Assembly: GCA_028873795.1 (NCBI GenBank)
Contig: JAPPNP010000004.1
Location: 1 to 53,083 of the forward strand
DNA length: 53,083 bases
Direction: 5' to 3'
Source of the DNA: Chloroflexota bacterium
GTDB taxonomy: Bacteria; Chloroflexota; UBA11872
Shown one piece after another: positions 44,922 to 51,079 of this stretch. A program made the position numbers and the translations under genes. The notes beneath the pieces were generated by a model. It was not told the origin of the DNA and did not search any database. It saw nothing but the letters and a program-made list of their open reading frames with translations. Numbering within the stretch: position 1 is the first letter of the stretch; each line of letters begins with the position of its first letter.

Positions 44922-46811
44922 CTACTCCCGCAGCCAGCTCCGGTCCAGCAAAATGCGGACCTCGCCGACCCGCCGCGTGACGGCGCGGGCGTCCAGGTGC
45001 TCCAGGAACGCGAGGACGTATTTGCGGCTGGTGCCCAGTTGGTCGCGAAGCTGCCGCACCGTCACCTGCTCATTGGCCGCGAAGGCCTCCCCAATGGCCT
45101 CCCGCCAGCGTGCGTATCCCGCGCGCGTCAGGCCGAACGCCGGCGTGACGCGCACCAGCTCTCCGGCGGCGGTGAGAGCGTCGAGCACCTCGGGCGGAGT
45201 CTTCTGGGCGCGCGCCAGCGTGGACAGGTCCGGTGGCGCGAAGCCGCCCTGGTCGAGCGCGGCCAGCAGGCGGTCGGCCACCGGGCCGCGCGGCGCCGCC
45301 GCTTGTCCCGGTGGGAGGACCCGCCCGCCCTCGAGGACCAGCTTCCCATCGGCCGCCAGGCTCTCGAGCAGCGCCGAAACCAGGGCCGCGGGCGCTTCAA
45401 GCCGCCGGGGCAGCGCGGCCCGCGCCAGACCGCCGGCAGCGCCGGGCGTCAGCAAGCCGCCAATGCGCTCGCTCAGGGCGTCGACGGCGGCCGCCGGCGC
45501 CACGTAGCCGCCGACAACACTCAGCGCGCCTTCGCGCTCCATGGCGTCCACGATCGCCGTCACCTCGCCCAGGCTCACCTCGGTGCGCCGCGCGATCTCG
45601 GCGGGCGTGAGCGGGCCCGCGGCCTCCACCGCCGCCGTCACCAGCTCGGCCGGCTCCGCCCGGCGGGCGCGTTCGAGGCCCTCGAGCGCGCCGGCGTCGC
45701 CGCGCGGCACGTGGCGGGCCTGCGCGCGCACGATCTCGCCGCCGCCGATGGTCATGGGCGGCGAGAGCCGCCGGATCACGTAGGGATCGCCCTTGCGCAC
45801 GGCGACCGCTTCCCCAAGCCGCCACTGGACCCAGCCGGCGGCGCCCGGCCGCATGGGATCGGCCTCCAGGTAGCGCAGCGCCGCCACCACTTCGGCGGTC
45901 CCCGAGTGCCAGGACACCCGCTCCCCGGGCTTCAGCGCCCGCGGCGCCGACGGCAGCAGCCGCAGCGTGGCGTCCACGCGCCGCGTCTCGGTGACGGCGC
46001 CGGACGCCGCCACGACCGTGCCGCGCGGGACCTCGGACGGCGCCACGCCGCCGAGGTTCACCGCCACGCGCCGTCCCGGCCAGGCGCGATTCTCCGTCGC
46101 GCGATGGGTCTGCAAGCCGCGCACGCGCGTCCGCGCGCCGCCCGGATACAGATGGACCATGTCGCCCACGTCCAGCGGCCCGCCGGCCAGCGTGCCGGTC
46201 ACCACGGTGCCGAAGCCGGGTTGGGTGAAGGCCCGGTCTACCGGCAGCCGCGGTCCGCCGGTCTGCTGCCGAGACTGGGGCTGCGACAAGATGTGCTCCA
46301 GCGTTTCGAGGAGCAGATCCAGGCCTTGGCCCTCGCGCGCCGAGACGGGAACAATTGGCGCGTGGGCGAGCGAGCCGTCCGCCAGCGCCTCTCGGACTTC
46401 CTGCTCGACGAGGTCGAGCCATTCCTCGTCCACCAGGTCCGTTTTGGCGAGCGCGACCACGCCCCGGTCGATGCCCAGCAGCGTCACGATGTCGAGGTGC
46501 TCGCGCGTTTGCGGCATCACCCCTTCGTCGGCGGCCACGACGAATAGGCAGGCGTCGATGCCGCCCACGCCGGCCAGCATGTTGTGAATGAATCGCTCAT
46601 GTCCCGGCACGTCCACCAAGCTCACCGAGCGCCCGCCGGGCAGGGTGAGCCACGCGAACCCCAGGTCGATGGTCATGCCCCGCGCCTTCTCTTCGGCCAG
46701 GCGGTCCGGGTCGATGCCGGTCAGCGCGTGGACCAGGGTGGATTTGCCGTGATCGACGTGCCCCGCCGTGCCAACCGTGGCCGCCGGTGGGGCGTCCGTC
46801 GCCGCCGTCAC
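44922..46811 (-). CDS. selB: Selenocysteine-specific elongation factor SelB
   Basis: This 629-residue GTPase delivers selenocysteyl-tRNA to UGA codons marked by a SECIS hairpin. The EF-Tu-like domain has GTAGHVDHGKSTL, ARGMTIDLGFAWL (the SelB type of switch I), DVPGHERFIHNML and AKTD. Domains II/III follow, including DRAFTQPGFGTVVTGTL. The C-terminal 250 residues contain the winged-helix domains that bind the SECIS (last one around VTVRQLRDQLGTSRKYVLAF). The GTG start overlaps the panC stop (GTGA). selA, selD and selC are not in the window. A selenoprotein gene lies at 50703-50954. Confidence 0.96.
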   Translation of the reverse strand: MTAATDAPPAATVGTAGHVDHGKSTLVHALTGIDPDRLAEEKARGMTIDLGFAWLTLPGGRSVSLVDVPGHERFIHNMLAGVGGIDACLFVVAADEGVMPQTREHLDIVTLLGIDRGVVALAKTDLVDEEWLDLVEQEVREALADGSLAHAPIVPVSAREGQGLDLLLETLEHILSQPQSRQQTGGPRLPVDRAFTQPGFGTVVTGTLAGGPLDVGDMVHLYPGGARTRVRGLQTHRATENRAWPGRRVAVNLGGVAPSEVPRGTVVAASGAVTETRRVDATLRLLPSAPRALKPGERVSWHSGTAEVVAALRYLEADPMRPGAAGWVQWRLGEAVAVRKGDPYVIRRLSPPMTIGGGEIVRAQARHVPRGDAGALEGLERARRAEPAELVTAAVEAAGPLTPAEIARRTEVSLGEVTAIVDAMEREGALSVVGGYVAPAAAVDALSERIGGLLTPGAAGGLARAALPRRLEAPAALVSALLESLAADGKLVLEGGRVLPPGQAAAPRGPVADRLLAALDQGGFAPPDLSTLARAQKTPPEVLDALTAAGELVRVTPAFGLTRAGYARWREAIGEAFAANEQVTVRQLRDQLGTSRKYVLAFLEHLDARAVTRRVGEVRILLDRSWLRE

Positions 46812-49372: not shown

Positions 49373-50676
49373 GCGTCGCCGCACCGCGCGTCGGCTTCAG
49401 CGCGCAGGACGCCCCCGATCCCGCCACCATCGCCACCTGCGTGCACTGCGGCCTGTGCCTCAACGAGTGCCCGACCTATCGCGTGCTGCGGCTGGAGATG
49501 GACTCGCCGCGGGGACGCATTCAGCTCACCAAAGCGGTCTCCGACGGGCACATGTCGCTCGCCAGCCCGACATTTCTGAAGCACACCTTCCGCTGTCTGG
49601 ACTGCCGCGCCTGCGAGACGGCCTGTCCCTCGGGCGTCAAGTACGGCGAGATCATCGAGGACGTGCGGGCGCAGACGGTGCAGGCCGGGCTGCTGCCGCG
49701 GGCGCGCCGCATCGCCGACCTGGTGCTGCGGCACGTCTTCACCCGACCGCGGGCGCTCCGGCTGCTAGGGCAGGGACTACGGCTGTATCAGCGCAGCGGC
49801 CTGCAGTGGCTGGTACGCCGCAGCCGCCTGCTGCACGCGCTGGCGCCGCCCCTGGCGCGGCTCGATGAAATGTCGCCGCCGATGTCCGCGAGCTTCCTGC
49901 AGGCAAGCGACCTGCGACTCGTGCCCGCCGAGGGCGAGCGTCGCCATCGCGTGGCCTTCCTGACCGGCTGCATCATGTCGCTGTCGCTCGCCGACGCGCA
50001 CCGGGCCTCGCTGCGAGTGCTGGCGCGCGCCGGCTGCGAGGTTCACATCCCCGAGCACCAGCAGTGCTGCGGCGCGCTGCACGTGCACGGCGGCGCGCGC
50101 ACGACCGCCCGCGACCTGGCCAGGCGCAACATCGACGCCTTTGAGGCGGACGCCTATGACGCCATCGTCGTCAACTCCGCCGGCTGCGGCTCGACGCTGA
50201 AGGAATACGGCCACCTGCTGGCGGACGACCCCGCCTACGGCGAGCGGGCGCGCGCGTTCGTCGCCAAGGTGCGGGACTTCTCCGAATTCCTCGCGGAGAT
50301 CGAGGCGCCCGGCGGCTCAGCCTCGGTCGAGCGCGACGTGATCTACCAGGACGCCTGCCACCTGGTGCACGCCCAGGGCATCACGCAGCAGCCGCGCGAC
50401 CTGATCGGCGCGATCCCCGGCGTCAATCTGGTGGAGACGGCCAATCCCACGGTCTGCTGCGGCGCCGCGGGCCTCTACAGCGCCACCGACACCGAGGTGT
50501 CGCTGCAAATCCTGGACGAGAAGCTCGACGCCATCCAGGCCACCGGCGCGCGCACCATCGTGTCGGGCAATCCCGGCTGCATCCTGCACCTGCGCACCGG
50601 CGCGCGGCGACGCGGGCTGGACCTGGAAGTCCTGCACGTCGCCGAGTTTCTGGACACGGCCCACGCCACGGAGTGA
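49369..50676 (+). CDS. glcF: Glycolate oxidase iron-sulfur subunit (GlcF-like, CCG domains)
   Basis: This 435-residue electron-transfer subunit has two [4Fe-4S] ferredoxin motifs, CVHCGLCLNECP (about 24-35) and CLDCRACETACP (about 75-86). Two cysteine-rich CCG domains follow, the first with QQCCGALHVHGG, then NSAGCGS and DACHLVHAQG, and a final VCCGAAGLYSATD with SGNPGCILHL. It passes electrons from the flavoprotein encoded upstream to quinone or another acceptor. The start overlaps the FAD subunit stop (ATGA). The third subunit of classic GlcDEF is absent. It converges on the selenoprotein gene 26 nt later. Confidence 0.93.
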   Translation: MSVAAPRVGFSAQDAPDPATIATCVHCGLCLNECPTYRVLRLEMDSPRGRIQLTKAVSDGHMSLASPTFLKHTFRCLDCRACETACPSGVKYGEIIEDVRAQTVQAGLLPRARRIADLVLRHVFTRPRALRLLGQGLRLYQRSGLQWLVRRSRLLHALAPPLARLDEMSPPMSASFLQASDLRLVPAEGERRHRVAFLTGCIMSLSLADAHRASLRVLARAGCEVHIPEHQQCCGALHVHGGARTTARDLARRNIDAFEADAYDAIVVNSAGCGSTLKEYGHLLADDPAYGERARAFVAKVRDFSEFLAEIEAPGGSASVERDVIYQDACHLVHAQGITQQPRDLIGAIPGVNLVETANPTVCCGAAGLYSATDTEVSLQILDEKLDAIQATGARTIVSGNPGCILHLRTGARRRGLDLEVLHVAEFLDTAHATE

Positions 50677-50702
50677 CGGATCGGTCGCCGTGCCGCCGGG
50701 CG

Positions 50703-50954
50703 TCAGCCCGAGAGCGCCTCGCTGACCAGCGGATAGATCTCGCCGGGTTTGGCGTGCCGCTTCAACGCGCGCTTCGAGAACACCAGCTCGTCGTTAACCT
50801 TCACCTCGAACACGCCGCCGCCGGACGGGATCAGCGTCCACTCGGCCACGTCGTCTGCAAACTCGGTCAGAATCTCCTCCGTCGCACGGACGGCTCTAGG
50901 GAGATAGTTTCATTGACTGCAGTATTCGATGGAGACTCGGGCGCCATGCGACAT
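50703..50954 (-). CDS. SelT/SelW/SelH (Rdx) family selenoprotein with in-frame UGA
   Basis: This is an 83-residue thioredoxin-like redox protein if the in-frame TGA at 50912-50910 is read as selenocysteine. Residues are Tyr11-Cys12-Ser13-Gln14-Sec15-Asn-Tyr-Leu-Pro-Arg-Ala, exactly the CxxU/CxxC active site and following YLPRA helix of the Rdx family. The frame continues with family features: EEILTEFADDVAEWTLIPSG, GGVFEVKVNDELVFSKRA, then HAKPGEIYPLV. ATG 50954 has a GGGGGAG ribosome binding site 6 nt upstream. A SECIS-like hairpin follows the UGA, and selB is 4 kb away. A stop codon at 50703-50705 ends it. Its function in bacteria is unknown; redox/thiol defence is assumed. Confidence 0.9.
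50872..50905 (-). promoter_or_regulatory. Bacterial SECIS-like hairpin inside the selenoprotein gene
   Basis: In the mRNA, 4 nt after the UGA, AUCUCC (50905-50900) pairs with GGAGAU (50877-50872). A 5-bp inner stem CCGUC / GACGG (50893-50889 with 50883-50879) closes the loop CGUGC, with an asymmetric internal loop between the two stems. The apical loop begins 22 nt after the UGA and has G at its second position, in line with the published bacterial SECIS consensus (loop 16-37 nt from UGA, G in the first two positions). Confidence 0.7.
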
Positions 50955-51079
50955 GTTGCGCTCCCCCTGATGCGGGTCGAGATTTGCGCGTGCGATTCCA
51001 TCGTCGCACGCCGCGCGGCCCACGCGCACGTCAAGAGATGAGACCCTTACCGAATACTTCGTCATGCTCGCCCCCCTCC

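Follow-up and report, generated by a model that had tools for sequence, protein, structure and literature searches.

A conserved in-frame UGA at the CxxU motif of a predicted SelW-like selenoprotein in a Chloroflexota lineage

A short minus-strand frame in a Chloroflexota genome is interrupted by one TGA, which raises the question of whether this codon is read as selenocysteine (Sec). The window, that is, the whole stretch of 53,083 nucleotides that was analysed, belongs to a genome of 3.18 Mb in 89 contigs with 96.6% completeness. The frame (50703..50954, minus strand) starts with ATG at 50954 and ends with the terminal TGA at 50705-50703, and its single internal TGA is located at 50912-50910, corresponding to codon 15. 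The ribosome binding site GGGGGAG (50961..50967, minus strand) lies 6 nt before the ATG, and a GGGAG-like stretch is kept in the genus. The product of 83 residues, MSHGARVSIEYCSQ-U-NYLPRAVRATEEILTEFADDVAEWTLIPSGGGVFEVKVNDELVFSKRALKRHAKPGEIYPLVSEALSG, reads IEYCSQ-U-NYLPRA around the internal TGA; CSQU occupies residues 12-15 and forms a CxxC/CxxU motif near the N-terminus, with the UGA at the second redox position. We estimate a probability of roughly 95% that this gene encodes a SelW-like selenoprotein of the Rdx family, a predicted thiol/selenol oxidoreductase in which Sec would be inserted at the UGA via SelB.

Family searches, with the TGA read as Sec/Cys, matched the product to Pfam Rdx PF10262 with 75.1 bits (cut-off 22.6, 5e-21). 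The match covers residues 6-77 (model 1-72 of 74) and continues across the TGA without a change of frame, which bears out the original prediction that the flanks on either side resemble the family. The product also scored 93.9 bits against NCBIfam NF041051, "SelT/SelW/SelH family (seleno)protein", above the equivalog cut-off of 88, and 56.4 bits against TIGR02174 CXXU_selWTH (cut-off 34.2). PDB Rdx relatives were found at ~1e-14 and align with Cys at the place of U, and with all three models above their cut-offs the proposed SelW/Rdx membership holds. SAV_2001 (PDB 3dex) and Atu0228 (PDB 2fa8) align over residues 3-64 and share the YC.QC..L.RA core, but they differ from the product in the Cys at the second redox position and in their longer chains of 105-107 residues. 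Mammalian selenoprotein W (PDB 2npb) is a distant Rdx relative with a weak match (E 0.14); it carries a CxxU motif, and its eukaryotic SECIS is located in the 3' UTR. The short name of NF041051, SelTWH_Campy, points to Campylobacter, whereas the host here belongs to Chloroflexota; our search of the literature on NF041051 found nothing on point. A search of the window's own genome revealed this gene as its only Rdx gene.

The identity of the residue inserted at codon 15 does not follow from the frame alone, and the UGA might be passed by ordinary leaky read-through or be read as Trp, Cys or Gly, without Sec. We consider this very improbable on several grounds, the first being that the UGA sits at the redox Cys/Sec position of the family. 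Of the window's 68 open frames with more than 300 codons, 41 end in TGA (a rough count, some frames being non-coding overlaps), and since it is the commonest stop of the long frames, the code is not reassigned throughout. The genome also possesses the full Sec machinery. The selB gene for the selenocysteine-specific elongation factor (44922..46811, minus strand) encodes a protein of 629 aa whose C-terminal part carries SelB winged helices and scored 315.5 bits against TIGR00475 (cut-off 242), in agreement with its earlier assignment. Sec insertion had been tied to selA, selD and selC in the same genome, and every one of them is present: selA on contig C85 (499.9 bits), selD on contig C75 (376.3 bits) and the tRNA-Sec on contig C11 (71.3 bits), identified by ARAGORN as SeC(tca), anticodon TCA. 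In addition, selD (L012 1501-2427; G000:C75:179515-180441) contains an in-frame TGA within SPGAG-U-ACK at the active site; the UGA of GAG-U-ACK stands where SelD proteins are known to carry Sec, and SelD of this genome is itself a predicted selenoprotein.

A further point against a non-Sec reading is a bSECIS-like hairpin suitably spaced from the UGA. Its core, CCGUC-CGUGC-GACGG (50879..50893, minus strand), begins 16 nt after the UGA and consists of a 5-bp upper stem and a 5-nt GU-bearing loop, CGUGC, which places the apical loop 21 nt downstream of the UGA. An extended stem-loop (50872..50905, minus strand) is predicted in which 50905-50900 pairs with 50877-50872 as an outer helix that is kept in some relatives, not all; the predicted energy of core plus outer helix is -11.6 kcal/mol. 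A 2026 review (PMC13188914) limits bSECIS elements to loops of 3-9 nt, stems of 4-16 bp, a G among the first two loop nucleotides, a distance of 16-37 nt from UGA to loop and an MFE of at most -7.5 kcal/mol, and the predicted hairpin of the window lies within all these limits (spacing 21 nt). In all 15 representative genes, a hairpin of 5 bp or more carries GU at positions 1-2 or 2-3 of its loop, compared with ~3.2 of 15 expected from swapping codons for synonyms; here the GU criterion was chosen only once the loops were known, and the representatives are not independent. Taken alone, the hairpin of the window is not unusually stable (z -1.5 against dinucleotide shuffles and -0.45 against synonymous shuffles), and that of one relative (L039) folds at merely -7.0 kcal/mol. 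There is slight covariation, at 2 of 5 pairs, and the RNAalifold consensus is weak at -2.4 kcal/mol, partly owing to a register shift of the helix in the more distant members. An Rfam search of the region returned chance matches only and no SECIS family. The bSECIS-like hairpin, which was absent from the original prediction, strengthens the reading of the UGA as Sec.

Other genes of the same genome carry in-frame UGA codons as well. Four peroxiredoxin-like (AhpC/TSA) genes, two of them neighbours, have the UGA in a UxxC motif (RAFW-U-TAC, RAFW-U-GTC, RHVW-U-LSC and RGHW-U-SHC), with loci at L062 G000:C76:12300-14700, L063 G000:C75:87000-88000 and L064 G000:C4:36000-37000. They are predicted to encode peroxiredoxin-like selenoproteins of a known family type. 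For the CMD/AhpD family, no match was found in this genome.

A second alternative is a pseudogene or sequencing error, in which a codon that formerly encoded Cys (UGC/UGU) would now read as the nonsense UGA; UGA is one base away from either Cys codon, and Rdx relatives with Cys do exist, both in the PDB and in one genome of our comparison. This comparison comprised 61 genomes, counting that of the window, at ranks from the genus up to the phylum, and 43 of them gave a SelW-like match. The minus-strand frame with one internal TGA is as originally claimed, and the same frame and TGA recur, far more often than chance would allow, in 42 of the 43 matched Chloroflexota genomes, at the levels of genus, family, order, class and phylum. 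The UGA is kept down to ~34-45% protein identity and is nearly always the sole disruption of the gene; two far relatives, G033 and G050, have one further TAG each inside the searched stretch, and the G033 gene (L055) nevertheless runs cleanly to its own stop. The only Cys form among the matched genomes, CAEC, was found in G046 (L065, G046:C9:32100-32900), which carries both selB and tRNA-Sec. Such scarcity of Cys forms was also the pattern in a 2006 bacterial survey, where SelW-like proteins had very few Cys forms in Sec-using organisms (PMC1794560).

Coding conservation downstream of the UGA, which the original prediction had left to close relatives to decide, was found as well. The dN/dS values (NG86) after the UGA are ~0.13-0.16 for comparisons inside the genus and ~0.14-0.44 for those spanning the family, which excludes a decayed gene; synonymous-site conservation in the same part is suggestive only (p ~0.07). 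With the UGA conserved and the coding constraint continuing after it, the pseudogene or error explanation is refuted in practice. No more credible is the proposal that the region codes instead for an antisense ORF, which is indeed open on the plus strand (50673-51041, 122 aa) but is opposed by the strong family matches and the codon-level constraint of the minus strand.

All 42 genomes with the UGA gene have at least one Sec-machinery marker, and 41 of them have selB over the cut-off or a clear tRNA-Sec, compared with selB or tRNA-Sec in 9 of the 19 genomes lacking the UGA gene (Fisher p = 9e-6, relatedness ignored). One genome with the UGA form, G022 (L051), has selA at 534.7 bits and no clear selB or tRNA-Sec; its assembly is 89% complete, and the missing genes are probably assembly gaps. 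Within the genus, all six genomes have the SelW-like gene and selB on one contig, ~4-6 kb apart, while comparison of gene positions in the sister genus revealed no such closeness.

The family assignment, the full Sec machinery, the conserved UGA and the constraint after it thus support the predicted expression of this gene with Sec via SelB. Hairpin-guided Sec insertion by SelB is established in E. coli, and from that mechanism and the anatomy of the locus we infer that SelB would bring Sec-tRNA-Sec to UGA codon 15 (50910..50912, minus strand), guided by the hairpin directly after it. The finished protein would adopt a thioredoxin-like fold and have C-S-Q-U as its redox centre, whose Cys and Sec may form a selenenyl-sulfide during the cycle. 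Judged by its family, the protein would most likely be a small thiol/selenol oxidoreductase, probably with a role in antioxidant defence and perhaps with a link to glutathione.

This kind of protein is already known, since SelW-like CxxU proteins were described in 2005 and an NCBI family model exists. SelW-like CxxU selenoproteins were the most abundant in the Sargasso Sea in that 2005 study (PMC1088965), and SelW-like proteins and SelD were the most widespread selenoproteins in the GOS data (427 genes; PMC2398784). Their function was called unclear, with the CxxU motif and the glutathione binding seen in work on mammalian selenoprotein W as pointers (PMC1088965). The marine bacterial proteins (PMC1088965, PMC2398784) belong to the same SelW-related family and share the CxxU motif and the in-frame UGA followed by a bSECIS; as far as tested, the host alone differs, here a Chloroflexota lineage with the UGA fixed across its family. 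For Chloroflexota, the 2006 survey listed only three selenoproteins (PMC1794560), and our literature search on selenoproteins of sponge-associated Chloroflexi found nothing on point. The bin names of some close relatives suggest a sponge source.

At about even odds, we regard the UGA as the fixed SelW-like state in this Chloroflexota lineage, within an undescribed selenoproteome of SelD, the SelW-like protein and at least four peroxiredoxin-like proteins with UxxC, in bacteria that are probably marine and associated with a host. The finding bears on annotation and comparative genomics, not on mechanism. Genes for SelW proteins were wholly missed in the annotation of Epsilonproteobacteria (PMC4607533), and automatic annotation would probably miss the present gene or truncate it at the internal UGA; the locus also contributes a SelW in the predicted Sec form, a state fixed throughout an entire Chloroflexota family.
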